Assembly: GCA_002457315.1 (NCBI GenBank)
Contig: NTKI01000006.1
Coordinates: 1 to 64,000 of the forward strand
DNA: 64,000 bases
From: Rhodothermaeota bacterium MED-G19
Lineage (GTDB): Bacteria > Bacteroidota > Bacteroidia > Cytophagales > MED-G16
Direction of reading: 5' to 3'
Part shown: positions 11,435-55,727 of the stretch, in pieces
Position numbering within the stretch: the first letter of the stretch is position 1
How the letters are laid out: each line of letters begins with the position of its first letter
The notes under the pieces: model-generated
What the model was told of the DNA's origin: nothing
Database searches by the model: none
The model's input: only the letters and a program-made list of their open reading frames with translations
Made by a program: the position numbers and the translations under genes

Positions 11435-12385
11435 ATGAGGAATTTTTTATTAGTTTTTATTTTTTTCTTTCTTTCCCAAACTGGACTAAAAGCTCAACAA
11501 GATCCGTATTTTAGCACATACTTGGTAAACCCTTCTCTTATTAATTCGAGTCTCTCTTCAGTTTATGAAAACAATAATGCTACATTAGTTTATAGAAACC
11601 AATGGTCTAATTATAATCCTACTAATCTCTCAAGTGCATCTGAGTCTCCAACAACCGGAATGTTTTCACTTAATTTAAAAAGCAGAGATAAAGCTTACTC
11701 ATTTGGAATGAATATTATATCAGATAATTTAGGCCCTAAAGAGGTATTTAACATTTCGCCTTACTTTGGTATTAAGAAAAAAGTAAATAATTCTTATATA
11801 AGTTTTAGTATATCACCTTCATTTAAGAGTACAACATTAAATTTTGGTTCTTTGGTTTTTGTTAATCCAGATGATCCTTTTAATATAAAAAGAAGTGAGA
11901 CTCAGTCTAAACCTGATGTTGGATTGGGATTTTCATATTTTAACGAAAAGTTTTTAGTAAGTCTATCGGTAAAGAACCTTACAGAATCATCTTTTGACTT
12001 TGGTATAGATGACTTGAAAAATATAGAATTTAGAAATTTTTCTTTTTTGGGTAAATATTTGATTGAAGTTGATAGGGACTTAACAATTGAGCCATATTTA
12101 TTAGTTAGGTCTGACTTTACATCACATACTTTTGATGTTAGTGCGTTAGCTACTTATCAAAAAAAAATGAATATCGGAGCATCTTATAGGTATGATGAAG
12201 CCATTGTTGGATTCTTAGGTTATCATTTCTTAAAAAAGAACAAGTTATTTGTTGGTTATTCTTTTGATTACGTTGTACATAATGTAAACGCTAAGGCTCC
12301 AGTATCTCATGAACTTGTTGTCAGATATGACTTGCCAACCCCTCAGTTGAAAAAACCCATAAGAACACCAAGATTTATTTACTGA
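11435..12385 (+). CDS. PorP/SprF family type IX secretion outer-membrane protein
   Basis: This 316-residue protein has a cleavable signal peptide (about residues 3-20, LKAQ), then QDPYFSTYLVNPSLINSS. That is the hallmark N-terminal QDPxxSxY...NP motif of the PorP/SprF family. The remainder consists of alternating short strands ending in aromatic residues, typical of a small outer-membrane beta-barrel. Family members accompany the type IX secretion system; some bind periplasmic linker proteins to anchor cell-surface adhesins such as SprB. It stands directly upstream of gldK, with about 150 bases between them, as in many flavobacteria. Paralogues are common, so I give no specific gene symbol. 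Confidence 0.9.
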   Translation: MRNFLLVFIFFFLSQTGLKAQQDPYFSTYLVNPSLINSSLSSVYENNNATLVYRNQWSNYNPTNLSSASESPTTGMFSLNLKSRDKAYSFGMNIISDNLGPKEVFNISPYFGIKKKVNNSYISFSISPSFKSTTLNFGSLVFVNPDDPFNIKRSETQSKPDVGLGFSYFNEKFLVSLSVKNLTESSFDFGIDDLKNIEFRNFSFLGKYLIEVDRDLTIEPYLLVRSDFTSHTFDVSALATYQKKMNIGASYRYDEAIVGFLGYHFLKKNKLFVGYSFDYVVHNVNAKAPVSHELVVRYDLPTPQLKKPIRTPRFIY

Positions 12386-12438
12386 TTTTTTAATTTTTCA
12401 ATCACTTGATCAAATTTAGCTTTGAAAGATACTTTTAC

Positions 12439-12446
12439 TATATTTG
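12439..12446 (+). promoter_or_regulatory. Candidate -7 box upstream of gldK (distal)
   Basis: TATATTTG matches TAnnTTTG and has a TTTG 14 bases upstream (12421-12424), slightly closer than the usual -33 spacing. It would give an untranslated leader of roughly 90 bases for the gld operon. It competes with a second box nearer the start. Confidence 0.3.
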
Positions 12447-12511
12447 TCCAACTATCTAACTAAAAAATTTATCATTAAAAACAATAATTTAGATAATTTG
12501 AAGTTAAGTTT

Positions 12512-12519
12512 TAACTTTG
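12512..12519 (+). promoter_or_regulatory. Candidate -7 box immediately upstream of gldK
   Basis: TAACTTTG matches the Bacteroidota -7 consensus. Transcription would begin near base 12525, just before the ATG codons at 12529 and 12541. This argues against the TTG at 12517 as the gldK start. No -33 TTG is visible at standard spacing. Confidence 0.4.
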
Positions 12520-12540
12520 CGTTTAGTTATGTTTAAAGTC

Positions 12541-13566
12541 ATGAAAAAATTTTCAGGTTTAATATATACTCTATTGCTTCTATCATTGGGTGCTTGTGGC
12601 ATTCTTGGTGGCGGCTCAAGCAAGAAGAATCCGCGTGGACAATTAGTTGGAACTCTAGACAGAGATGGCTTTGAAATGTCAGCACAGTATGGTATGGTTT
12701 ATATTCCTACCGGGAGGTTTTATATGGGACAAGCTGATGAAAATATTCAATCGGATCAAAGTAACTTTAACAGACAAGTAACTATCAGCGCATTCTATAT
12801 GGATGACACTGAGATTACCAATGATGAATACAGACAGTTTATCCAGTTTATTGAAGAGAATCCAGATTATGAACTATCTGAGGGAATGACCCTTGAGGGA
12901 TTAAAACCTGATACTACTGTTTGGTCAAGTGACTTTACACATCATTATGGAGACCCTCTACTTGCTTATTATTGGTCACACCCCGCTTTTGATGACTATC
13001 CAGTTGTTGGTGTATCGTGGGAGTCATCAAGAGAATTTGCTAGGTGGAGAACAAGTTTCTTAAACGGTTATAGAAAAGAAGAAGGGCTTTTGCCTTTTCC
13101 TTCATTCAGATTGCCCACTGAAGCTGAATGGGAGTATGCTGCAAGGGGAGGAAGAGATAATGTTAAGTATCCTTGGGGAAATCCTTATACAAGAAATTCA
13201 AGAGGTTGTGTGCTGGCAAACTTTAAACCTGGAAGAGGAAATTATGTTGATGATGGGTATGCATACACATCTCCAGTTGGAGTATTCTTCCCTAATGATT
13301 TTGGTTTATATGATATGTCTGGTAATGTTGCTGAGTGGTGTGAGGACGCATATATAGATTCCTATAATCCAATTGTGTGGGATTTAAATCCAATTTACAG
13401 AGATGATACTAATGACAAGAAAGTTATTAGGGGAGGCTCTTGGAAAGATATTGCCTTTTTTATTGAGGTTGCAACAAGAACTTTTGAATATAAAGACTCA
13501 ACTAGAGCTTTTATAGGCTTTAGGACGGCAATGCCTCATTTAGGTAGAAACTTAGAAGGTTTATAG
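12541..13566 (+). CDS. gldK: Gliding/type IX secretion lipoprotein GldK
   Basis: GldK is the outer-membrane lipoprotein that, with GldN, forms the large periplasmic ring of the type IX secretion system. With the ATG at 12541 the protein has 341 residues and a classical lipoprotein signal ending LGAC (lipid-modified Cys19). An in-frame ATG at 12529 and TTG at 12517 also exist. The rest is a formylglycine-generating-enzyme/sulfatase-modifying-factor fold: MVYIPTGRFYMGQ, DDTEITNDEYRQF, LPTEAEWEYAARGG, MSGNVAEWCEDAY and GGSWKD. It heads the gldKLMN operon. Family members lost the copper-binding cysteine chemistry of true FGE enzymes and are structural. Confidence 0.95.
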   Translation: MKKFSGLIYTLLLLSLGACGILGGGSSKKNPRGQLVGTLDRDGFEMSAQYGMVYIPTGRFYMGQADENIQSDQSNFNRQVTISAFYMDDTEITNDEYRQFIQFIEENPDYELSEGMTLEGLKPDTTVWSSDFTHHYGDPLLAYYWSHPAFDDYPVVGVSWESSREFARWRTSFLNGYRKEEGLLPFPSFRLPTEAEWEYAARGGRDNVKYPWGNPYTRNSRGCVLANFKPGRGNYVDDGYAYTSPVGVFFPNDFGLYDMSGNVAEWCEDAYIDSYNPIVWDLNPIYRDDTNDKKVIRGGSWKDIAFFIEVATRTFEYKDSTRAFIGFRTAMPHLGRNLEGL

Positions 13567-13617
13567 AAAAAAGATTAATTTTAAATAAAAAGAAAAAATA
13601 ATTAAACAGTATAAAAA

Positions 13618-14367
13618 ATGATAACTAAGAAAAAATCAAGTAATCCTGTTCTGGCTTGGCTTCAGAATGAGGATAATATGAATGTGATTTATGGTTTAGG
13701 AGCTGCTGTAGTAATACTAGGAGCGCTCTTTAAATTACAGGGTTGGCCATTTGCTAACTTAATGTTAATAGTAGGTCTTGGGACAGAGGCGTTAATATTT
13801 ACTTTAAGTGCTTTTGACCCTCCAAGTAAACACGAGTGGGACTGGAGCAAAGTATACCCGGCATTGGGAACAGATGCTGAAGGAACTTCTGCATCGCAAG
13901 TGGGAAATATAATGAAAGAAGCTAAACTAGATCCGGCTGTACTTAAAAGTGTTGGAGACGGTATGAAGAAAATGGCTGCGCAAGCTACTAACATTAATGA
14001 TTTGGCTGGAGCTTCTGTTGCTGCTAAGGCTTATGAAAATAGCATAAAGGGAGCTACTGAGTCTCTTAACTCTGTTAATGAGTCTTACAGTACCATTTCA
14101 GCTACCGCAAAAGACTTAGCGTCTTCTACTTCAAGTGTGAAAGAAGCTGTAGGTTTAACCGAAGAATATAAAGAAAATTTAAAAAGTGCCTCAAGTTCAC
14201 TAGGTGCTATTGTTACGGCTTCAGGACAAATTACTGAGACTGCTACAAGTATGACTAAGGCTCAAAATGATGCTTTAAGATTGCAGAAAGAGTTACAAGA
14301 CCTTACTGAGAATTTAAATAAACTTAATAAGATTTATGTTGGTATGTATGATGCCATGCATAAGTAG
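13618..14367 (+). CDS. gldL: Type IX secretion motor protein GldL
   Basis: GldL is the cytoplasmic-membrane subunit that, with GldM, converts proton motive force into rotation to drive type IX secretion and gliding. This 249-residue copy has two transmembrane helices (about 24-43 and 46-66) separated by LQGWP, and a DPPSKHEWDW exit. It then has a long cytoplasmic domain rich in Ser/Ala/Lys heptads that ends in a coiled coil. Charged residues inside the helices, Lys39 and Glu57 (GLGTEALIF), correspond to those implicated in proton coupling in Flavobacterium GldL. It lies about 50 bases after gldK and 30 before gldM. Confidence 0.95.
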   Translation: MITKKKSSNPVLAWLQNEDNMNVIYGLGAAVVILGALFKLQGWPFANLMLIVGLGTEALIFTLSAFDPPSKHEWDWSKVYPALGTDAEGTSASQVGNIMKEAKLDPAVLKSVGDGMKKMAAQATNINDLAGASVAAKAYENSIKGATESLNSVNESYSTISATAKDLASSTSSVKEAVGLTEEYKENLKSASSSLGAIVTASGQITETATSMTKAQNDALRLQKELQDLTENLNKLNKIYVGMYDAMHK

Positions 14368-14397
14368 AAATTAAAATAACTTTTAAATAAATAAATT

Positions 14398-16005
14398 ATG
14401 GCTGGAGGAGATAGCCCTAGACAGAAAATGATTAACATGATGTACATTGTGTTAATTGCTATGTTAGCTCTTAATGTTGACACAAAGGTGTTAAAAAAGT
14501 TTATTTTAATAAACGAGAGTTTTGAGTCTACAAATAGTGAAAAAACTGTAGATAACTCTAATAAAGTAGAGACTATTAGAGCTGCGGTTGAAGAATCAGG
14601 TAACAGGAGTGAAGATATACGTGTGTTAACACTTTCTGAGTCAGTAAGAGAAAAGTCAAACGCTCTAATTAACCATATGGGTGATATTAAAAGCCTTATT
14701 GTAGAAGAGACTGGAGGAAAAGATTCTAAGACTGGTATCAAAGGTTATAAAAATATAGACTTTGTATATAGCTATATGAATAAAGATGAGAATAAAGACA
14801 ACCTAACTAACGGTGATGACTTACAAATATTGATAAATGAATTCTCTACTTTTGTTCTAGATTCAGTGTATAATGGTGACAAAGAATCTGGCATCCACGA
14901 TCTTGCAAGAAATGCTGATCAGATACCTATGTATGCTGATAACCCACCAACTGACCCTTCTTTTTCTACTTTAAATTTTGGTTTTGGTACTTCTGCTGGC
15001 GCGGGTCTTGCAACAATTAGTCAGCTTCAGGCAGAGGTTATAAATCTTGAGATTAAGGCGCTTGATAAACTTGCTGCTTCTGTGGGGGCTGCAGATTTAA
15101 AGTTTGATGTTGTCTCATTAACTACATTACCAGAACAGAAAGTTGTTGCAGCAGGTGCAAAATATAAGACTCAATTATTTTTATCTGCAGCTTCTTCAGC
15201 TATAGTTCCTACTATGACTGCTGATGGAGATACTTTAGAGGTGTCGAATGGAAGAGGTTATTATGAGTTTGTTGCTAAAGGAGGTAATTATGATGGAGAA
15301 GGATTATCAAAACAAAGTTATATTGGATCAATTAGTGTTACCCTTCCAGGAGGAAGAGATACAACTTTTATTGACACAGTTGAATATTTTGTTGCTAGAC
15401 CTGTTATCCAGATTCAATCTGCTTCAGTTCAAGCATTGTATTTTAATTGTGGTAATGAATTAACTGTTAATGTTCCAGCACTAGGATCAGAATATAATCC
15501 TACATTTTCTGCAAGAGGAGGAGATGTTGTTAGAGGTTCAAAGGCTGGTGTGGTAACTATCATACCAAAGTCTAAGAAGGTTGATCTTAATGTAAGTAAT
15601 GCTGGAAACTTTATAGGTTCTCAATCTTTTGGTGTAAGACAAATTCCCGCACCCGAGATAAAGGCAAGGATTAAAGGTAAAGAGATTGATGCTAAATCAG
15701 GTATCCCAGTTAGCACACCAAGTTTTAGCTTGGACGCAATTGCTGATGCGAGTTTTGCCGAATTTTTACCAAAAGACGCTAGATTTCAAGTTCGTGAGGC
15801 TGAAATTAACCTCGTTAGAGCAGGAAGAGGAGTATCTAGACAAAGGGTTAATAGTAAAAACGTTAACCTCAATAAACTTGCTGGTAAGAGGAAAGGAGAT
15901 AACATTGTTATTGAAATTAAAAAGGTAGCTAGAGCAAACTTTTTAGGAGAAGTTGAAGAATTTAAGAATTTTGCTCCTAGGTATATAACTATACCTTTAA
16001 AATAA
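14398..16005 (+). CDS. gldM: Type IX secretion motor protein GldM
   Basis: GldM forms the dimeric periplasmic shaft of the type IX motor, anchored by one helix that packs inside the GldL ring. The 535-residue protein begins MAGGDSPRQKMINMMYIVLIAM: a short cytoplasmic basic stretch, then one transmembrane helix (about 12-27). Four periplasmic domains are expected. The first is helical and contains the LSESVREKSNALINHMGDIK stretch. The rest are beta-rich, with GSISVTLPGGRDTTF near 320 and a basic C-terminal domain (VREAEINLVRAGRGV) that should face the GldK/GldN ring. The length is within the family range, and gldN follows after four bases. Confidence 0.95.
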   Translation: MAGGDSPRQKMINMMYIVLIAMLALNVDTKVLKKFILINESFESTNSEKTVDNSNKVETIRAAVEESGNRSEDIRVLTLSESVREKSNALINHMGDIKSLIVEETGGKDSKTGIKGYKNIDFVYSYMNKDENKDNLTNGDDLQILINEFSTFVLDSVYNGDKESGIHDLARNADQIPMYADNPPTDPSFSTLNFGFGTSAGAGLATISQLQAEVINLEIKALDKLAASVGAADLKFDVVSLTTLPEQKVVAAGAKYKTQLFLSAASSAIVPTMTADGDTLEVSNGRGYYEFVAKGGNYDGEGLSKQSYIGSISVTLPGGRDTTFIDTVEYFVARPVIQIQSASVQALYFNCGNELTVNVPALGSEYNPTFSARGGDVVRGSKAGVVTIIPKSKKVDLNVSNAGNFIGSQSFGVRQIPAPEIKARIKGKEIDAKSGIPVSTPSFSLDAIADASFAEFLPKDARFQVREAEINLVRAGRGVSRQRVNSKNVNLNKLAGKRKGDNIVIEIKKVARANFLGEVEEFKNFAPRYITIPLK

Positions 16006-16009
16006 AATT

Positions 16010-16897
16010 ATGAATAAAATAAATAAGATTCTTGTACTTTATTTTTTGCTTTCAGTTGTATCTGTAGATGAGACCTATTCTCAGGTAACATTTCAAGAAA
16101 CTACTGGATCAGAATCAAACGGATATAATCCATTGTCTTTAAGACAAGTACATGAATCTTATTTAATGTGGAAGAAAACTCTGTGGAGAAGAGTTGATCT
16201 TAAAGAAAAACAAAACAAACCTTTTTTTGCTAGAAATAGAGAGATGTCTAAAATAATTATAGATGCTGTAGAAAGAGGTGTTTTGATCCCCTATAGCAGT
16301 GACTCCGTTAATGATAGTAACGTAATGTCAAGAGAAGAATTTGTTGAGAACATACAACAGGTTGATGAGGAAGTTGAAGAAGAGGAAGGGTTTGATTTAG
16401 ATGATCCTTTTGCTTCCTTTGATGAAGCAGACCCATTTGCTGAGGAAGTTGAAGAAATTGAGACTGGACCAATTTTTATACCAAAAAGAGAGTTTTCTAT
16501 TTTTGAAATTAAAGAAGATTTATATTTTGACAGAATTCATTCAAGAATTTATTTTGATATTCAGGCCATTACAATGTTTTTGCCTGGTGATAGCTTTTAT
16601 AACCCTGCTGGATTCGAAAAGCCTATAGCGTCATTTAGATTTATTGATCTTTATAATCTATTTAAATCTATGCCAAAAGGAGCTATATGGTTTAATGAAA
16701 ACAACATTGCTCAACATAAGAATTTAGGAGATGCTTTTCTTTTAAGGTTATTTAAAGGAATCATAGTAAAAATTGCTAATGCGGATGACATAAGGGTATC
16801 TGAATTGTATGCTAGGTCTAGAAAAGAAGGGATTATGGCTAGCTTTAAGGTAGAGCAAGACCTTATGGAGTGGGAATCTAATCTATGGGAATATTAA
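16010..16897 (+). CDS. gldN: Type IX secretion ring protein GldN
   Basis: GldN is the soluble partner of GldK in the periplasmic ring of the type IX secretion system. This 295-residue copy has a signal peptide (about 1-25, ending YSQ). It also has the family landmarks PLSLRQVHESYLMWKKTLWR near residue 42, a RIHSRIYFDIQA core near 180 and an ARSRKEGIMASFKVEQDLMEWESNLWEY C-terminus. Residues about 117-151 form a very acidic stretch with repeated DPFA units (DDPFASFDEADPFAEE). It lies four bases after gldM, and its stop codon shares the palindrome TTAA with the stop of convergent uvrC. Confidence 0.92.
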   Translation: MNKINKILVLYFLLSVVSVDETYSQVTFQETTGSESNGYNPLSLRQVHESYLMWKKTLWRRVDLKEKQNKPFFARNREMSKIIIDAVERGVLIPYSSDSVNDSNVMSREEFVENIQQVDEEVEEEEGFDLDDPFASFDEADPFAEEVEEIETGPIFIPKREFSIFEIKEDLYFDRIHSRIYFDIQAITMFLPGDSFYNPAGFEKPIASFRFIDLYNLFKSMPKGAIWFNENNIAQHKNLGDAFLLRLFKGIIVKIANADDIRVSELYARSRKEGIMASFKVEQDLMEWESNLWEY

Positions 16898-18709: not shown

Positions 18710-21001
18710 CTAGAAAATATCAGAAGCGTCAATTTTATCTAAAATAAGATCTAAAGAATCAGATTTTATTTCATTATTGTATACTGAGCAATCAATCTCA
18801 ACATTTATTTTTTTGGTAGGTTTATCAAATCTTCCTTTTTCAATACTAAGTGTATTATCTGCATAAACATTTAGCATATATTGTTGCCATATTGGCATTG
18901 CTGTTCTTGCTCCTTGTCCATATACCCAGTCCCTAAAGTGTATACTTCTATCATCACCACCTACCCATGCACCCGAAACAAGATTATGAGTTACACCTAT
19001 GAACCACCCATCTGACGCGTTTTGAGTTGTACCTGTTTTAGCGCCAACATCATTATTGAAAGTTAACTCTGGGTTTAGTCCTCTTGCGGTACCACCTTCT
19101 TCTTCTTTTGATCCCTTTAGCATGTGAAGCATTAGGTATGCGGTCTCTTCACTAAGTGCCTCTTGTTTTGTAGGTATAAAATCTTGTATTAAGTTTCCAT
19201 ACTTATCTTCAATACGCGATATAAAAAAGGGCTCTGTCCAAATTCCCTGATTAATAAACGTGCTATATGCACCGACAAGATCAAATAGAGACACATCACC
19301 CCCAGCCCCAAGACATACTGCCGGCACAGGGTCTAATTTACTTTGAATTCCCAATTTCTTAGCGTAGTCTACCACAGTCTTTGGAGATAGTTTTTTTGTC
19401 ATAAATGCGGTTATTGAATTAACAGATTTAGCCATGGCTTGTCTTAATGTCATAGTTTCACCTGTCCACTTACCATTATGATTATCTGGCCTCCAGTATG
19501 GTGGGTCTTGCCCTGGTAATTCAAAAACTACTGGCGCATCTACTACTGGGTAACATGGAGAGTAGCCGTTATCTATTGCAGCTGCGTATACTATTGGCTT
19601 AATTGTTGAACCAGGCTGTCTCTTTCCTTGTTTTACATGATCATATTTAAAATACTTATGGTTTATTCCCCCTACCCATGCTTTAATATGTCCGGTTTTT
19701 GGTTCTATTGAAACGAAACCAGCCTGAAGAAATTTTTTATAGTATTTTAAAGAATCCATTATGCTAAAGGTTGTGTCAATCTCACCTTTCCAGCTAAAAA
19801 CTCTCATCTTTTTCTTTTTATTTAATAATTCAAAAGTTTTGATTGTATCGTTATCATTGTTTTTTAGGAGATTTTTAAAATAGCGTGTTCTTTTAATATT
19901 ATTCTTCAAAAAGTCCTTTATTTCAAATCCTTTTTCATCAATCCAAGGATTCCTCCCGTCCCAGTGTTCACTAAAAATATTCTGTAATCTATTCATCTGC
20001 TCGATTACTGCCTTTTCTGCATGTTCTTGCATTTTGCTATCAATGGTAGTATAAATTTTTAATCCGTCAGAAAATAAATCATAGCCATTTTCCTTTGCCC
20101 AGCTAATCAAATAATTTCTGACTACAGTTCTGAAATACGTTGCTTGACCTACATTCTGATTTTGTACTTTATAATTTAAATTTAAATCTGTAAGTATTAG
20201 AGAATCATACTCTGTCTTATCTACAATATTGTACTTATATAGGTTATAAAATATCTCGGATCTTTTATTAGTAGCGTTTTCTGGATTAAAAAAAGGGTTA
20301 TATTTTGTTGGTTTATTTAATAATCCTACAATTATTGATGACTCATTGTAATTAAGCTGAGAGGGTTCTTTATTAAAGTATGTTTTAGCAGCAACTTTTA
20401 TTCCATAGGAATTACTTCCGTACTCTGCTGTATTAAGGTACATTGCCAGAATCTCTTTTTTAGTGTAGAATTCTTCAAGTTTGACTGCAACAATCCACTC
20501 TTTAACTTTTGATATTACTAGACCTAAGAAAGGAACATTACTTAGTTTACCTTTTTTTTCTCTACGAATCTTAAATAAATTTTTAGCTAGCTGTTGTGTG
20601 ATGGTACTTCCACCACCTTCAAGCCCAGTTGACCCAAATGTTGCAATGTTTTTAATAACGCCATAAGTTGCCCTTACAAGTCCTTTCAGGTCAATACCCG
20701 AGTGGTTATAAAACCTTATGTCTTCTGTAACTAAAAGGGTTGTTACCAGCTCATCAGACAATTCGTCAAATTTTACTGGAGATCTATTGTATCTAAAATA
20801 CTTTCCTAGTAATATGTTATCACTTGAATATAATTCTGATGATAGCTCTGACTCAGGTTTTTCTAAATCTTGAAGACTTGGCATCCCACCAAAGAGATTA
20901 AATACATTATAGTTAACGGAAATAATAAATATAGCTATGAATGTTATCCCTGATAATAGGATAACCCATAATTTTTTTATATTTCTTTTTAATTTATTCA
21001 T
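18710..21001 (-). CDS. Class A penicillin-binding protein (PBP1A family)
   Basis: This 763-residue bifunctional peptidoglycan synthase has a short cytoplasmic start and one membrane anchor (about 11-30). The glycosyltransferase domain follows, with the catalytic Glu in VTEDIRFYNHSGID near residue 92, GGSTITQQLAKN near 130 and LAMYLNTAEYG near 195. The transpeptidase domain has the SxxK nucleophile in QPGSTIKP near residue 463, an SVN motif in AKSVNSITAF, and KTGTTQNASDGWF near 655. It polymerises and cross-links peptidoglycan in the periplasm. Its start overlaps the sprE stop by four bases (ATGA) and uvrC follows after four bases, so the three genes form one operon. Confidence 0.95.
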   Translation of the reverse strand: MNKLKRNIKKLWVILLSGITFIAIFIISVNYNVFNLFGGMPSLQDLEKPESELSSELYSSDNILLGKYFRYNRSPVKFDELSDELVTTLLVTEDIRFYNHSGIDLKGLVRATYGVIKNIATFGSTGLEGGGSTITQQLAKNLFKIRREKKGKLSNVPFLGLVISKVKEWIVAVKLEEFYTKKEILAMYLNTAEYGSNSYGIKVAAKTYFNKEPSQLNYNESSIIVGLLNKPTKYNPFFNPENATNKRSEIFYNLYKYNIVDKTEYDSLILTDLNLNYKVQNQNVGQATYFRTVVRNYLISWAKENGYDLFSDGLKIYTTIDSKMQEHAEKAVIEQMNRLQNIFSEHWDGRNPWIDEKGFEIKDFLKNNIKRTRYFKNLLKNNDNDTIKTFELLNKKKKMRVFSWKGEIDTTFSIMDSLKYYKKFLQAGFVSIEPKTGHIKAWVGGINHKYFKYDHVKQGKRQPGSTIKPIVYAAAIDNGYSPCYPVVDAPVVFELPGQDPPYWRPDNHNGKWTGETMTLRQAMAKSVNSITAFMTKKLSPKTVVDYAKKLGIQSKLDPVPAVCLGAGGDVSLFDLVGAYSTFINQGIWTEPFFISRIEDKYGNLIQDFIPTKQEALSEETAYLMLHMLKGSKEEEGGTARGLNPELTFNNDVGAKTGTTQNASDGWFIGVTHNLVSGAWVGGDDRSIHFRDWVYGQGARTAMPIWQQYMLNVYADNTLSIEKGRFDKPTKKINVEIDCSVYNNEIKSDSLDLILDKIDASDIF

Positions 21002-23457
21002 CTATTATAAAATTTTACAAACTCATTAAAATTTTTAGATTTAAAAATTAAGTTCATGTTTTTTTCTCCAACAACAAAATTAGCATTTACTTTTATTTCT
21101 TTAGTATCTAAGTTCAAATTGAATTTTTCTTCGATTTCTTTCAGTGAATTCAGATTGTTATCTGATATAGCGTCAAAGTAAGTTGTATCATTAAGCCTGA
21201 ATGAATAAATAGGAATTTTTTTATCAAGTTCTTTGAGAGTATTTTCAAGTTTTATAGAAAAATTATCTGTCTGGTTTTCTGTTTTTATTATTATGAAAAA
21301 ATATTTATCATCTTTATTATTTTTAAAATGCGGAAGACCACTAAATATAAAATCATCATGCACTGTTTCAGCAGAATTTAATAGAGATGATGCAAAGTCA
21401 ATAGTTGACCTGTCCTTTGCTGAATTTAAATATTTTTTCAACTCAAATTGTAACGAAAAATTTCCGCCTTTTTTACCTAAAGCAATAGATTTAAGTAAAT
21501 TGATATTTTCAAAAAACGGATTTTTAGAATAAATCTTTTGTAGTGAATCAACCTTATTTATTACGTGATTGTTTTCTTCATTTTTTAATTTATCATATAG
21601 TACGCCATAGAGATTTCTTAATAAATTATATTCTCTAAATTCATCAACTTCAAAATCTGGATTTACTATTAATTTATAAAAAATTGTTTCTTTAAAATTA
21701 TTAAGAATAATGTTTTTATATTTTTCATTTTCTTCATCAATTAAATATAGTTGATAGATGACCTCGGCATAATACTCAGAGTTGCTAAACCTTTCAATGA
21801 ATATTTTAAAGGTATTTATCCCTTTTAATTTTTCATCTAATTTTTGTACATATATTTTACCTATAGCAACGAATGCTTTCTCGGTTTCTTTATTTAATTT
21901 ATTTTTATCTTCATCACTAAATGGTAGACTTGACATTAAATCTTCTGCGTTCATTTCATTTTCTTTTTCTACACTTTCTTCATCAGAACTATCTTGAACC
22001 ACCTCTTCAATATTATCATTTATAGATGTGAAACTTATTTTAGAGCTGATTCTCCAATTATCTGCTAATTCTCTATTTCCCCATTTTCTTTGGAATTCAT
22101 TTCTCCCAGAACTAACCATTGAAGGATTGTTAAAATACCAACTTCCTTTATTATTATTATCAATAATTGTTGGCTCACTTAAAAGGAAGTTTTGACTTTC
22201 CTTTTTAACTCTCTTTTCTCTTTGTTTCTTTTCATTATTTTCTATGTTTACTTCAATTATTTTCAAGAGTTCGTCTTCCGGGATGGATGTTAAATGAATT
22301 AGACTATCATTTCTTTCTATTATGTCAAGATTATTAACAAGATCTGTTAATACATCACTCTTTTCTTTGAGTAAGCTATAGTCTTTATTTTCTCTATTTA
22401 TGTTAGCTAGAGCACTATCATAATACAGTTTTGATAATTTATACTCTATCAAATTATCATAATAAATATCAGCTATATTTTTAAAGGAATTATATAAAAG
22501 CTCTCGTTTAGATTTATTCTCTGCAACAGATAACTTGAAGTTATTTATTGCATTATTATACTTTTCTCTTTTTATATTAAATAATCCTATTTCATAGTAT
22601 ATTCTATCAAGCTTATCAATGTTTTTTTTATCTTTTAAAAGCTTTCCAAAATATTTGTTTACATCTTCGGAAGAGGAGTTAAAAAGAGATTTAGAATAAA
22701 ATATTTTAGCATTAAATTCCATATCAAATGTTGGGTTGTTTTTAAGACATTTTTGGAAATATAATGCAGCAATATCATATTCATTTTGTATCAAGTATAT
22801 TTGACCTATAGCGAAGAAAACTTTATTTATCAGCCTTCTGTTTTTAACTATCTTTTCTAACTCAAATAGAGTATTAAGAGTTTCCGTTAGGTTATTAGTC
22901 TTTTTGTGTAAGTAATGAGTGTTTAAGTAGTATTCAATTGCTAAATCTTTTTCTATTGATAGTTTTTTTAAAAACTCATTTACCTCTAACGCTGCTGAAT
23001 AATCTTTTTTTTCTGTATAAGCCCTCATCAGATATATTAATGACATTTGTTGGGCAGTAGCATTGTTGGTTTTAGAGTTGACATATTTCAGTGTTGTTAT
23101 AGCCTGCCCAATATCCATAGCAAGAAGTCTACTTTTACCAATTAGAGCATAACTTGGGTATACATATTTTGAATCTGGATGCCTTTGAATTAAAATCGAA
23201 AGTTTTTGAATGCTATTATCTTTTTTTTCTTTTAACCCAGATACTCTATTTGTATCAATCTCGTATGTGAGATTAATTAGGCTATCATAATTATATTCTG
23301 CTGTTTCAATTAGTTCTTTCTCTATTTCACTTATGACTTCATTAGCAATAAAATACGCATTATATCTTGCTGTTGTATCATCATATAATGTATTAATAAC
23401 TGAATTACATGAGTATAATAGTATGATAATAAAAAAATATGAAGGTTTAATTTGCAT
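20998..23457 (-). CDS. sprE: SprE/PorW-like type IX secretion TPR lipoprotein
   Basis: This 819-residue protein has a lipoprotein signal ending LLYSC (Cys17), followed by the segment DDTTARYNAYFIANEVISE, which resembles the N-terminus of SprE/PorW. About ten tetratricopeptide-like helical pairs follow between residues 60 and 400 (for example AIGQIYLIQNEYDIAALYFQ and YEIGLFNIKREKYNNAINNF). There is then a linker and a C-terminal domain rich in Lys and Asn. SprE/PorW links the periplasmic ring to the outer-membrane translocon in type IX secretion. The family diverges rapidly, so an unrelated TPR lipoprotein is possible. It heads the sprE-PBP-uvrC operon. Confidence 0.72.
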   Translation of the reverse strand: MQIKPSYFFIIILLYSCNSVINTLYDDTTARYNAYFIANEVISEIEKELIETAEYNYDSLINLTYEIDTNRVSGLKEKKDNSIQKLSILIQRHPDSKYVYPSYALIGKSRLLAMDIGQAITTLKYVNSKTNNATAQQMSLIYLMRAYTEKKDYSAALEVNEFLKKLSIEKDLAIEYYLNTHYLHKKTNNLTETLNTLFELEKIVKNRRLINKVFFAIGQIYLIQNEYDIAALYFQKCLKNNPTFDMEFNAKIFYSKSLFNSSSEDVNKYFGKLLKDKKNIDKLDRIYYEIGLFNIKREKYNNAINNFKLSVAENKSKRELLYNSFKNIADIYYDNLIEYKLSKLYYDSALANINRENKDYSLLKEKSDVLTDLVNNLDIIERNDSLIHLTSIPEDELLKIIEVNIENNEKKQREKRVKKESQNFLLSEPTIIDNNNKGSWYFNNPSMVSSGRNEFQRKWGNRELADNWRISSKISFTSINDNIEEVVQDSSDEESVEKENEMNAEDLMSSLPFSDEDKNKLNKETEKAFVAIGKIYVQKLDEKLKGINTFKIFIERFSNSEYYAEVIYQLYLIDEENEKYKNIILNNFKETIFYKLIVNPDFEVDEFREYNLLRNLYGVLYDKLKNEENNHVINKVDSLQKIYSKNPFFENINLLKSIALGKKGGNFSLQFELKKYLNSAKDRSTIDFASSLLNSAETVHDDFIFSGLPHFKNNKDDKYFFIIIKTENQTDNFSIKLENTLKELDKKIPIYSFRLNDTTYFDAISDNNLNSLKEIEEKFNLNLDTKEIKVNANFVVGEKNMNLIFKSKNFNEFVKFYNR

Positions 23458-51201: not shown

Positions 51202-52485
51202 ATGCATAGGCTTCACGTTAATATATTTCTAATATACTTTTTTTTTCTAACTAAATTATCACTTGCTCAAGACACTACTCCATTTAGTTCAGTAAATCCA
51301 ATTGGAGAGATATCAGATAATTCTTTTGCTAATAATTTAGGGATGGGAGGCGTCGGAATCAGCAACGGATCTTATTGGCACTTAAATAATCAAAATCCTG
51401 CTGCCCTGGTATATAATAGATTCACAACATTTGAAATGGGCATTGCATCTGATGTAAGACAAATTGTCAATAGTTCAACAAAAGATATAACAGGAAATGG
51501 AAATATAAATTATATAGGTTTTGGTATTCCAGTTTTAAAAGGAGGAAAATGGGTTACATCTATTGGATTCAACCCATATAGTAGTACTAATTATAAACTT
51601 TTTTCACAGGATCAGGTGGTTGATTTAAATGGTGACCCTACTTCAGCACTAGTTGATTATAATTATGATGGTTCTGGCGGACTAACGGAGGTGTATTTTT
51701 CTAATGGATTCAAACTTGGAAATGATTTTTCATTTGGAATAAAGGGCTCTTATATTTTTGGAAAGATAACTAGTAATATTTCTTCAAGTATATCAAACGA
51801 ACCACAATTTTACTCTAATTTATTCGAGAGGTCGTCATTCAAAGATCTATCATTATCTACTGGTTTATTTTATAAGAATGAGTTCAAGGAAGATAATTTT
51901 ATAAAAATTGGGTTAATTTATGACCTCAACTCTTCTCTTGATGCGACTAGGTTTTCACAGCTTGAAAGAAAAATCCCAAATTCTCTTTCTGTTCTTGTAA
52001 TAGACACAATTTATAATAACGAGATGTCTAAGTTTAATATCCCTAGAAATTTTGGTATTGGCGTATCATATGAGATTATCGATAAACTATCTGTTGGCAT
52101 AGAATATAGATCCAGATCATGGAATAGTAGTAGTGGGTATGGTGACAATTCATCCAAATTATACAAAACAGAATTTCAAGTATCTACAGGAATTGAGATT
52201 ATTCCTGATGCTGAAAATGTAAATAGTTTTTTTAAACGAGTAACATACAGAGGGGGTTTGTTATTTAAAAAATCACCTTTTTTAATTAATTCTGAAGAAT
52301 TATATACCACAGCTTTTACCTTCGGATTGGCAATACCAATCGGTACTATTTCAAGGATAAATTTAGGTTTAGAAGTAGGTAAAAGAGGTAATGTTGATAA
52401 ATTATCTATCAAAGAAAACTATCTAAAGTTCATTATTGGGAGTTCTATAAATAATATTTGGTTTATTAAAAGAAAATTTGATTAA
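51202..52485 (+). CDS. Outer-membrane beta-barrel protein (FadL/PorV-like)
   Basis: This 427-residue protein has a signal peptide (about 1-22, LSLAQ), then an ANNLGMGGVGISNGSYWHLNNQNPAAL segment. The NPA motif after a plug-like N-terminal stretch is shared with FadL and PorV outer-membrane proteins. The remainder alternates strands with aromatic girdles and Asn/Ser-rich loops, predicting a 14-strand-type barrel ending KRKFD. The transported ligand is unknown. It opens an operon that continues with a TPR protein and LptC, an arrangement recurring in flavobacteria. Confidence 0.75.
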   Translation: MHRLHVNIFLIYFFFLTKLSLAQDTTPFSSVNPIGEISDNSFANNLGMGGVGISNGSYWHLNNQNPAALVYNRFTTFEMGIASDVRQIVNSSTKDITGNGNINYIGFGIPVLKGGKWVTSIGFNPYSSTNYKLFSQDQVVDLNGDPTSALVDYNYDGSGGLTEVYFSNGFKLGNDFSFGIKGSYIFGKITSNISSSISNEPQFYSNLFERSSFKDLSLSTGLFYKNEFKEDNFIKIGLIYDLNSSLDATRFSQLERKIPNSLSVLVIDTIYNNEMSKFNIPRNFGIGVSYEIIDKLSVGIEYRSRSWNSSSGYGDNSSKLYKTEFQVSTGIEIIPDAENVNSFFKRVTYRGGLLFKKSPFLINSEELYTTAFTFGLAIPIGTISRINLGLEVGKRGNVDKLSIKENYLKFIIGSSINNIWFIKRKFD

Positions 52486-52495
52486 TTTTAATATT

Positions 52496-53863
52496 ATGAA
52501 AAATTTAATTGTCACAATAATTTTATTTTTTAATAGCTTTTTTTTACTTGCACAACCAGGTTGGAACTGGCCTGAAAATAAATCTGAAGCTGAAGAAAAA
52601 AATGTATTATATACAGACTACCTAAAACAACAAAATTGTGAGGCAGCAGTTGAACATCTCGGCTGGCTGATTGATAATGTACCAAATCTTCATGTTTCAA
52701 TATATCAAAATGGCATTAAAATTTATAGGTGTCTCATTGATAAAGAAGATGACCCTATTAGAAAAAATGAATTAATTGAAAAATCTCTGAGTTTGTTCGA
52801 TGCAAGACATAAAAATTTTGGAAGAGAAGCTTACGTTAAAAATAGAAAGGTAACATTCGCCTACACCTTCTATAGGTCTGATAAGACCAAGTATGAGTTG
52901 TTATATAATATGTTTAATGACGCATACTCTCTTAATGGCAATAAAATAGGAAACAGTAATATAGTAGCTTTTATGGATATTGTTAGAAAGCATAAACTTA
53001 CATCAAAAACTATAAGTGATGATGAAGTATTAAACATATATGATAATATTTCAAAAACTATTGAATTCAAAATTATTAATGAACCAAAGAATGAGGTAAG
53101 GCTAAGAAAATATCAAGACAATGTAGATAAACTTTTAACTGCAACAATAACTGTAGATTGTAATTTTGTTGAGAACACTCTAGGACCTAAATTATTAGAG
53201 TTAACCGCAGCTCCAGCAGATGAGATTGTTCAGACTGATTATGAGACATTAACTCCAGTTGATATTACATATTCAGATGAGATAGTAAAATTGGCTAAAA
53301 AGATTTTTCAATTAAGTATTACTGGTAAGTGCACTTCATCCGAAATTGCTTTAGAAGCAGCAAAGATAATGTTCACGAACGAAAAAGATTTTGCTATAGC
53401 AAAATTCATAGCGGGGAGAGAACAAGCTAATAAAAATTACGAGTCCGCTTTAGAATACTATGATGGAGCTATTGATTCTTCAGATGATAATGTTCAAAAA
53501 TCTGAAATCTATTTAAACAAAGCCCAGCTGTATGCTGTTATTGGAAATAAAAATAAATCAAGAAATAACGCTAGAAGATCCATTTCTTTAAATTCTAAAA
53601 ATTCGGATGCGTATAAGTTAATTGGAAATTTATATATGGGTTCTTATGATGATTGTAGAGAAGGTAAGAGCAGAGTAGAAGATAGATTAGTTTTTATAGC
53701 AGCTTATAATATTTTTAAAAATGGAGGATTAATATCTCAAGCTAATCAGGCAAAAGAACAATTTCCGTCTATGGAAGAAATATTTAATGAGAACATGGAG
53801 ATAGGTGAGTCCATGAATACAGGCTGTTGGATTAATGAAACAGTAACTTTAAATAAGAGATAA
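52496..53863 (+). CDS. Periplasmic TPR protein
   Basis: From the ATG at 52496 the protein has 455 residues; the frame extends upstream into the previous gene's end, which is not used. It starts with a signal peptide (about 1-19, LLAQ) followed by GWNWPENKSEAEEKN. Helical repeats follow, with clear TPR pairs near 300-385 (AKFIAGREQANKNYESALEYY, YLNKAQLYAVIGNKNKSRNNARR). The C-terminus ends GCWINETVTLNKR, a tail I associate with a Bacteroidota family of secreted TPR proteins. It is probably a periplasmic scaffold for an outer-membrane process. It is coupled to the next gene through TAATG. Confidence 0.8.
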   Translation: MKNLIVTIILFFNSFFLLAQPGWNWPENKSEAEEKNVLYTDYLKQQNCEAAVEHLGWLIDNVPNLHVSIYQNGIKIYRCLIDKEDDPIRKNELIEKSLSLFDARHKNFGREAYVKNRKVTFAYTFYRSDKTKYELLYNMFNDAYSLNGNKIGNSNIVAFMDIVRKHKLTSKTISDDEVLNIYDNISKTIEFKIINEPKNEVRLRKYQDNVDKLLTATITVDCNFVENTLGPKLLELTAAPADEIVQTDYETLTPVDITYSDEIVKLAKKIFQLSITGKCTSSEIALEAAKIMFTNEKDFAIAKFIAGREQANKNYESALEYYDGAIDSSDDNVQKSEIYLNKAQLYAVIGNKNKSRNNARRSISLNSKNSDAYKLIGNLYMGSYDDCREGKSRVEDRLVFIAAYNIFKNGGLISQANQAKEQFPSMEEIFNENMEIGESMNTGCWINETVTLNKR

Positions 53864-55206
53864 TGAAAAGCTTTAATATACCTGAGTTTATAGAAAGTGT
53901 TCCGGTACTCAGACTTTTTGGAAAAAACTTAGCACTTAATGCTGGTATTGCTTTTGTAATCCAGGATTTTTTAATACCCCTTTATTCTAACTATATATTT
54001 AATATAGTTTTTGGGCTCGTATTTTTTGGACTTCTATCTATTGGATATTGGTTTTTTATATTTAAAGAAAAAAATAAAAACTTTGCTCATTTTTCTTTTC
54101 AGGTATCTATAGTTTGTATTATTTTATCTATAATGGTAGGGGCACTAAGTTCAGTCTCAAAAGCATTCTCATCTGATGAGAGAGGTATTTTAGCATCTAA
54201 TGTTGATTTCGTAGCTGAATTACAAGACAACACAAATATATATGACGAAGAATTACAATCCTTGGGCAGAGACATCTCAAAAGTTTCTAGTCAGTTTTCT
54301 GAGCTTCAGAGTGATCTTTCTACTTTGTCTGAACAAATTTCCTCTCAATTAACTGATGAAGGAAATCCATTAAATAATGAAGAGTTTCTAGATAAAATAT
54401 CAACATTAATAGAAGAAAAAAGTTTAACTAATAACAGTACAGTTGTTAATGTTGATGATTCTGATCAAGTCAAAGAACTAAAGAAAAATCTTGATATTGC
54501 TACTGAGCTGCTAAGACAAGTGACTCTTGCAAATGTTAATCTTCAAAATAGAGAGAATGAAGTTTCTGAAACTCTCAATGCAGACAGTCTTATTTATTAT
54601 ATAGGAGATTTAAAAGAAGATATGAGTGATTTACGTAATTTTTCCTTGCAGTTATTGGCAAATACAGCACTTGTAGATACTCGTTCTGAACTAAACACAT
54701 TTAAAATCGAGACAAAAAAAGACTTAGATGAATTTAAACTCTTTACTTCAAAAGAAATTGATGAAATTAAAGAGCTAGCAAAAGAGATTTTGAATGCTAA
54801 TAAAAAGGGTTCTGGAAAGTCTGACAATAATCTTTCTAAAGAATTAAAAGATTTGTCTAAGGCAATGGAAAAAAGTAATTCAAGCACATCATCAATTGAT
54901 GCAAATTATCTTGAGGAGATAGTTGAGACCTATCAAGAACTTGCAGAAAAAATTGATAACAGCTCAGTGCAAAGTGATTTAGATGAAATTAAAAAAGAGA
55001 TTGCTAATCTATCATCAGATAAAAGTACTTCACTTGCTCCAGAAGTTTTAGAAAAACTACAATCTGCTCCTGATGGAAATTTAGATAATTCAGCTGGATT
55101 ATCTGAATTAAAATATTATATAGTTGAGTTGATGAAAGATCAAAATGAAATCAGGCAAATTGTAAAGGACCTAAGAGAGTTGCTTGAGAAAGGTGAAGAA
55201 AATTAA
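53863..55206 (+). CDS. Membrane-anchored coiled-coil protein of unknown function
   Basis: I do not recognise this 447-residue protein. It has three hydrophobic helices in the first 100 residues (about 25-46, 48-69 and 78-99), with a short basic loop between the second and third. A long soluble part (about 105-445) follows, dominated by heptads and acidic residues (EELQSLGRDISKVSSQFSEL, KEDMSDLRNFSLQLL, IKKEIANLSSD, RQIVKDLRELLEK). The layout of a short helical anchor with a long coiled-coil tail superficially resembles GldL. Start and stop are coupled to neighbours (TAATG at both ends), so it belongs to the LptC operon. The side on which the tail lies is unknown. Confidence 0.7.
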   Translation: MKSFNIPEFIESVPVLRLFGKNLALNAGIAFVIQDFLIPLYSNYIFNIVFGLVFFGLLSIGYWFFIFKEKNKNFAHFSFQVSIVCIILSIMVGALSSVSKAFSSDERGILASNVDFVAELQDNTNIYDEELQSLGRDISKVSSQFSELQSDLSTLSEQISSQLTDEGNPLNNEEFLDKISTLIEEKSLTNNSTVVNVDDSDQVKELKKNLDIATELLRQVTLANVNLQNRENEVSETLNADSLIYYIGDLKEDMSDLRNFSLQLLANTALVDTRSELNTFKIETKKDLDEFKLFTSKEIDEIKELAKEILNANKKGSGKSDNNLSKELKDLSKAMEKSNSSTSSIDANYLEEIVETYQELAEKIDNSSVQSDLDEIKKEIANLSSDKSTSLAPEVLEKLQSAPDGNLDNSAGLSELKYYIVELMKDQNEIRQIVKDLRELLEKGEEN

Positions 55207-55727
55207 TGTCTCGACTCCTAGTTGTCTTCTTGTTTGTTTCTTGTTCACAAAACAATTTTCAGAAGATTGATGAAACATATGATGGCCCAATAATTGAAAT
55301 AAAAGATTTGAATACTTTTTTTTCAGATTCTGCTAAAGTTAAGTTTAAACTTAAGGCAAAGCTATATCAGGTTTTCGGATCAGGAGAGGAAAAATATCCT
55401 GATGGATTAAATATGGATATATTTTCCAATCAAAACCCAGAATCTATATCTGCTACTTTTCAAGCAAATCATGTGATTAAATATGAGGATGAAAATTACT
55501 TCAAGGCAACTGGGAATGTTATTTTATATAATTTAGAAACTAATGATGAGTTAAGAACTGAGGAGTTATTTTGGTATCCTAATGATGAGAAATTTATTTC
55601 TGAAAAATTTGTCACTATTAGAACAGGTAATGAAGTTCATAAAGGCGAGGGTATGGTCTCAAATCAAGATTTTTCAAATTATGAAATACTTAAACCATCC
55701 GGGATAATTGAAATAGATGAAAATTAA
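55206..55727 (+). CDS. lptC: LptC-like LPS export protein
   Basis: This 173-residue protein matches LptC, the bitopic or lipid-anchored periplasmic part of the LPS transport bridge. The N-terminal hydrophobic segment ends FVSCSQNN, so it may be a lipoprotein (Cys13), a form frequent in Bacteroidota. The mature part contains the jelly-roll strands typical of the OstA/LptC domain: GPIIEIKDLNTFFSDSAKVKF, an ATFQANHVIKYEDENYFKATG pair and FWYPNDEKFISEKFVTI. The TAATG start couples it to the upstream coiled-coil gene. The lptB, lptD and lptF/G genes are not nearby. Confidence 0.88.
   Translation: MSRLLVVFLFVSCSQNNFQKIDETYDGPIIEIKDLNTFFSDSAKVKFKLKAKLYQVFGSGEEKYPDGLNMDIFSNQNPESISATFQANHVIKYEDENYFKATGNVILYNLETNDELRTEELFWYPNDEKFISEKFVTIRTGNEVHKGEGMVSNQDFSNYEILKPSGIIEIDEN

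Follow-up and report, generated by a model that had tools for sequence, protein, structure and literature searches.

GldL/PorL, the stator of the T9SS and gliding motor, has a few membrane helices at its N-terminus and behind them a helical tail located in the cytoplasm. TolA-type tethers combine an inner-membrane anchor with a long helical tail in the periplasm, and both GldL/GldM and TolQRA transfer inner-membrane energy to the outer membrane. In Bacteroidota, BamG was described in 2025 as a subunit of the BAM machinery whose presence is either required or essential in the species examined, according to the parts of the two accounts considered here (PMC12611786, PMC12578637). The orphan gene analysed here, called X, touches on this machinery by its position: it adjoins a gene pair formed by bamG and a gene encoding a TPR protein in the window, i.e. 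the whole stretch of 64,000 nucleotides that was analysed (contig NTKI01000006.1).

The four genes described here are located on the forward strand. BamG (51202..52485), the FadL-like outer-membrane barrel subunit of the Bacteroidota BAM, was assigned by NF053685 (E 8.7e-94, 314.8 bits versus a cut-off of 250). It is followed by the TPR gene (52496..53863, with a possible alternative TTG start at 52478), whose product has a signal-peptide-like start as judged by eye, by X (53863..55206, 447 amino acids) and by lptC (55206..55727). The product of the latter has a lipoprotein-like N-terminus and its earlier identification as LptC was borne out by PF06835 (E 3.3e-8) and TIGR04409 (E 2.2e-13). The TPR protein obtained generic TPR matches alone in Pfam and NCBIfam, all below the cut-offs. 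Its AlphaFold2 (AF2) model, based on 14 alignment rows, is an all-helical repeat with a mean pLDDT of 85, and a fold search with this model led to generic TPR matches with TM-scores of 0.1-0.4 among the best 50 of 1279.

X is a real gene, with an intact reading frame, overlaps at both ends and homologues within its bacterial family. As the preliminary description had noted, the motif TAATG occurs at both ends: the ATG of X shares one base with the TAA of the TPR gene, and the TAA of X shares one base with the ATG of lptC. X does not stand out from its six measured neighbours in GC content (0.298, within 0.25-0.31) or in GC3 (0.183, within 0.155-0.215). Compared to three relatives, dN/dS amounted to 0.064-0.082 for X, 0.051-0.075 for the TPR protein, 0.074-0.101 for LptC and 0.058-0.124 for BamG, all of these being rough ratios since dS was at or beyond 1 (about 0.9-2.6). 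Within this rough measure, X is under purifying selection similar to that on its neighbours.

The view that X belongs to no recognised family holds across Pfam, NCBIfam, PADLOC and PDB. The window protein had no match over the cut-off in Pfam and NCBIfam and no match below E 0.1 among PDB chains, and PADLOC provided no confident family, homologues included. Several weak, inconsistent hits of individual homologues were rejected as noise caused by coils or composition, namely LmuB (E 0.0016) and AbiEi (E 0.0052) of PADLOC in one of 14 homologues each, PRK13824.1 of NCBIfam in two of 14 (E 0.0031), and CD20 and DUF6317 (four of 14 each) as well as FliH (three of 14) of Pfam. The Pfam hits MTR4_beta-barrel (E 2e-4), Apolipoprotein (E 4.8e-4) and V-SNARE (E 0.001), each in two of 14, were likewise regarded as noise.

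Each of the 15 genomes analysed from its own bacterial family carries X. This family comprises three genera (g1, g2 and g3) with genomes of about 1.0-1.6 Mb and a completeness of 54-93%. X was detected in none of the 179 other genomes searched from the order, so that all 15 carriers among 194 genomes belong to one family. A pattern scan of a genome collection of 84,980 species (according to its own description) matched 178 stretches, 14 of which are relatives, and a pattern scan of a viral collection resulted in 90 matches and zero relatives. The records of the relatives are labelled as Marinoscillum, Flammeovirgaceae or Cytophagales MAGs, Marinoscillum being a member of the Cytophagales; the named relatives thus belong to the Cytophagales and not to the Flavobacteriales, the order named in the preliminary description. 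A search of 395 genomes of the phylum with a profile of the X N-terminus, in which the X family was represented by one genome among the matches listed, also gave four weak matches in genomes of other families (40-58 columns, E between 7e-5 and 0.005). These were regarded as chance membrane-helix matches; three of the frames have 46-88 residues, two of them with an internal stop, and one has 1142 residues. Among the genomes searched, X therefore is a family seen so far in this clade alone, a clade on which no literature was found. At locus L039 (genome G001, C4:22140-23490) X is broken into two frames, for which gene loss and an assembly error are both conceivable; this copy was excluded from the 14-sequence alignments.

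The three membrane helices proposed earlier correspond to three hydrophobic stretches within residues 1-104, which in 19-residue windows cover residues 22-40, 49-67 and 79-97 with a mean hydropathy of 1.47, 2.18 and 2.11. Residues 5-42 (53875..53988) form an amphipathic start and helix 1, in which Q34 and D35 are invariant in 15 of 15 aligned N-termini, and residues 45-103 (53995..54171) comprise helix 2, a basic loop and helix 3. The net charge of this loop is +2 to +4 in 12 of the 14 homologues and -1 in both g2 proteins. Directly after helix 3 follows a conserved segment (residues 106-127, 54178..54243), of which residues 106-120 reach a mean column conservation of 0.90.

The tail (residues 105-447) had been described as an acidic coiled coil of 340 residues. 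Its acidity (73 D+E versus 38 K+R) and its mostly helical character, the latter by prediction, were found as described, but the continuity of the coiled coil was not, since heptads are clear in parts of the tail only. The clearest heptad stretch covers residues 119-167 (54217..54363), where in each of two overlapping windows none of 500 shuffles reached the observed 3.5-residue periodicity. In the window's protein three regions gave a clear heptad signal at an uncorrected p of up to 0.04 (22 windows), located at about residues 105-181, 203-237 and 315-349. A further heptad-rich helix at the C-terminus (residues 410-444, 55090..55194) is strongly conserved in g1 and g3, and in residues 407-441 six to seven of eight a/d positions are hydrophobic. 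Taken over the tail as a whole, the 3.5-residue periodicity is stronger than in shuffled sequences for each of the 14 homologues (no more than one of 300 shuffles equally high), the 3.6-residue period of an ordinary amphipathic helix being about equal in strength. Variable linkers, in which conservation falls to 0.42, lie between conserved blocks with a mean column conservation of 0.86-0.91 (residues 106-120, 211-225, 256-270 and 421-435). The AF2 model of X, made from the 14-row alignment, is poor (mean pLDDT 42, many helix breaks) and thus decides nothing on the coiled coil or the structure.

In the order of its parts, a few N-terminal membrane helices and then a helical tail, X resembles GldL/PorL, and the preliminary description had drawn this analogy. 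Kinship is not indicated: X has no TIGR03513 match, a comparison with the GldL profile gave a probability of 0.3%, and GldL is separately encoded at 13618-14367 (forward strand, TIGR03513 155.3 bits versus a cut-off of 68.3). It belongs to a GldK-L-M-N cluster (12517-16897) located 37 kb from X, which is outside the cluster. The GldL tail also differs by being cytoplasmic, whereas that of X is presumably periplasmic. A relationship to GldM was rejected as well, since no kinship was found. The T9SS/gliding core cluster as a whole extends over 11435-16897 on the forward strand (PorP/SprF family, GldK, GldL, GldM, GldN), and a PorW/SprE homologue is encoded nearby on the reverse strand (20998-23457).

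An ion-driven, stator-like X handing inner-membrane energy on to the outer membrane would be in agreement with the invariant Q34-D35 pair within helix 1 and with a presumed periplasmic helical tail, and D35 might permit a proton-driven role. We nevertheless regard the stator-like reading as very improbable, as D35 may sit close to the membrane edge and no stator type was detected among the five neighbouring proteins scanned, in addition to the low GldL probability and the separately encoded GldL. A loss of MotA/TolQ/ExbB-type proteins was ruled out by their presence in 29 of 29 genomes. TolA-type tethers are similar to X in supposed layout alone, with an anchor and a long helical tail that in X would also be periplasmic. 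They differ in having one membrane helix instead of three, the g2 tail of X moreover ends in a TPR domain, and neither Pfam nor NCBIfam matched X to TolA.

This TPR domain bears on both the location and a partner of the tail. The X proteins of both g2 genomes have 635-637 amino acids and share a homologous C-terminal domain with the TPR protein, as indicated by Blast against the upstream TPR protein (E 9e-17 and 4e-17, 34% identity) and by hhalign (98.5%, E 3.7e-15, 125 columns). In a tree of 55 domains the 15 TPR domains of the family form a group (99/92) and the two g2 X domains are placed outside; their place is unsure and their branch long (2.27), so that they may have been excluded wrongly by the long branch. 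The g2 X domain is probably an old or fast-changing copy, and recent copying from its own TPR neighbour is not indicated by the tree. The fusion suggests the TPR protein as partner of X. Since the TPR proteins of all 14 family loci which include the gene start have signal-peptide-like beginnings (by eye), the fusion of the g2 tail to this type of domain furthermore suggests that the tail of X is periplasmic.

The charge pattern agrees with a topology of N-terminus inside and C-terminus outside, since the loop joining helices 2 and 3 is basic in 12 of the 14 proteins compared; that of the g2 proteins is contrary to the charge rule. An additional, modest support for a periplasmic tail may come from a D-S/T-hydrophobic motif. 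Motifs of this type are O-glycosylated in non-cytoplasmic proteins of Bacteroidota, as stated in the part of the source considered (PMC12871550). The window's X has a single such motif, D241-S242-L243 (54583..54591), which is located in the tail and is conserved in 13 of 14 homologues, with an ambiguous residue in the 14th. Column shuffles of the tail gave an equally conserved motif in 3.7% of cases, in a test made after the motif had been noticed. Both g2 proteins contain a second motif at residue 13 in the presumed cytoplasmic N-terminus, which implies that the motif also arises where it is unusable. Among the window's proteins, sorted by hand, its density is 4.7 per 1000 residues in 12 exported and 2.6 in 23 cytoplasmic proteins (p 0.051), a weak enrichment; no motif of this type is conserved in the TPR protein.

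We consider it very unlikely that the tail is instead cytoplasmic and serves as a scaffold beneath the inner membrane. Helix 1 is the least hydrophobic of the three (see above) and may not span the membrane, in which case two helices would leave the tail inside; the basic loop would then face outside, however, and the g2 tail would carry a domain of the kind found in a secreted protein. With several lines in agreement, we infer that the anchor of X is in the inner membrane and its tail in the periplasm.

Absence of the gene from its position in close relatives had been named as refuting the proposed envelope role. All 15 family genomes in fact retain the position: X is located between the TPR gene and lptC at all family loci (the window and 14 named ones), with overlaps or short gaps, and bamG is found upstream at 14 of 15, the contig of L029 beginning within the TPR gene. 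The same neighbourhood without X is widespread. The TPR protein was matched in 61 of 118 Cytophagales genomes, 52 of 109 outside the X family, and in one region each from 38 of these 52 genomes BamG was present at 31 loci and X at none. At 25 of the 38 loci lptC is next after the TPR gene, in 24 cases with gaps of -49 to 451 bases and at L087 with a 65-base overlap. The order BamG-TPR-LptC is thus widespread in Cytophagales without X, and X may be an addition or a retention by this family alone. This occurrence of the TPR protein and its neighbourhood implies that the TPR protein is independent of X, and it renders the linkage of X to LptC and the barrel less telling than supposed in the preliminary description. 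Six genomes contain paralogues of the TPR protein at other places, and the 13 kb around each paralogue include neither X nor BamG nor LptC.

X could accordingly be a lineage-specific inner-membrane protein with periplasmic helices which shares the transcript of these genes without acting on BAM or Lpt, a reading that we consider rather doubtful but not far-fetched. The widespread gene order without X is compatible with it, as is the absence of a recognised domain. It accounts poorly for the maintenance of X at the same place in all 15 of these small, incomplete genomes and for the fusion to the TPR domain in g2.

The evolutionary distances of 13 family members, excluding L029, whose contig starts inside the TPR gene, and L039, correlate between X and the TPR protein with 0.983, compared to 0.886 for BamG, 0.879 for PpiD and 0.860 for LptC. 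The partial correlation over the whole family is 0.932 for the TPR protein and -0.172 for LptC, and all 100 column bootstraps ranked the TPR protein first, as did 99 of 100 without g2. Within g1 alone, X follows LptC (r 0.949) above the TPR protein (0.898), which was best in 17 of 100 bootstraps. The distances favour the two genes flanking X and provide no clean choice between them, with relatedness and linkage as confounding factors.

The close tracking of LptC within g1, together with the overlap or short gap between X and lptC at the family loci, would also fit an inner-membrane scaffold or regulator of the Lpt (lipopolysaccharide export) machine acting via LptC, and the family does possess LptF/G (13 of 15 genomes over the cut-off) and OstA_2 (15 of 15). 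Taking into account the negative partial correlation over the whole family, the lack of any observed fusion or domain common to X and LptC, and the presence of the tested Lpt parts in the nine searched relatives of the order without X, this assignment seems unlikely. A replacement of a missing Lpt part by X was rejected since there is no evident gap: 22 of 24 genomes exceeded the cut-off for LptF/G, and OstA_2 was found in 24 of 24. The two genomes that missed it for LptF/G, G006 and G012, belong to the family, G012 having a hit beneath the cut-off only.

Our tentative preference, held with less than even confidence, is that X is an inner-membrane-anchored periplasmic scaffold which docks on the TPR protein and tethers the TPR/BamG side to the inner membrane. 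Its N-terminus would be cytoplasmic and its three N-terminal helices would serve as the anchor, while the acidic helical tail, partly coiled-coil, would form a probably oligomeric scaffold in the periplasm. The tail, most likely by its conserved C-terminal helix, would dock on the periplasmic TPR protein and thereby tether or position, with respect to the inner membrane, that side of the outer-membrane assembly machinery on which the TPR protein and BamG are located. Binding of the TPR protein is suggested by the g2 fusion and the distances, whereas gene order is the basis for a link to BamG and for the tethering function. Binding of the acidic C-terminus by a carboxylate clamp in the TPR protein was considered and rejected, as the clamp looked absent when compared by eye with HOP residues.

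The preliminary description had suggested an envelope bridge or regulator. This idea gained by the fusion in g2 and by the assignment of the barrel as BamG and lost by the frequent linkage of LptC and the barrel without X. In its full form, a clade-specific trans-envelope bridge from the inner membrane via the TPR protein to BamG/BAM, and perhaps LptC, coordinating the insertion of barrels and LPS, we regard it as improbable. If X tethers the group of BamG, TPR protein and LptC, it would provide a means of coupling outer-membrane assembly to the inner membrane; failing that, X remains an orphan protein of the envelope which all 15 analysed genomes of a single bacterial family possess.

BAM subunits published for Bacteroidota (BamA, BamD, BamG, BamH and others) are located in the outer membrane, the periplasm or at the surface, whereas X would be an inner-membrane protein. 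The parts of the two accounts considered describe neither a subunit similar to X nor an inner-membrane link to BAM (PMC12611786, PMC12578637). Instead of an order-wide co-conservation with bamG, as expected for the BAM core, X occurs in the genomes of a single family and at none of the non-family loci with BamG. X is thus a lineage-specific orphan, being neither GldL nor, in these published accounts as far as considered, a BAM subunit. No Bacteroidota tether protein of the proposed kind was found among the literature matches listed, judged by title.

Independent of X, the bamG neighbourhood of Cytophagales, which includes LptC and a conserved TPR protein that appears to be secreted, points to possible partners of BamG. 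The two-part TPR protein next to BamG is a candidate for such a partner. The texts of PMC12611786 and PMC12578637 contain neither the word 'tetratricopeptide' nor a mention of LptC, and literature searches gave no relevant work joining BamG with LptC and, for LptC in Bacteroidetes, nothing useful among the matches listed. Downstream, a CNNM/CorC-like gene between lptC and a gene encoding a PpiD-like protein was not found at five g1 and both g2 loci (L029, L030, L031, L033, L039, L040, L041). A loose lipobox pattern was observed near the N-terminus of 26 of 42 LptC proteins (two loci counted twice); E. coli LptC, unlike this lipobox type, is membrane-anchored.
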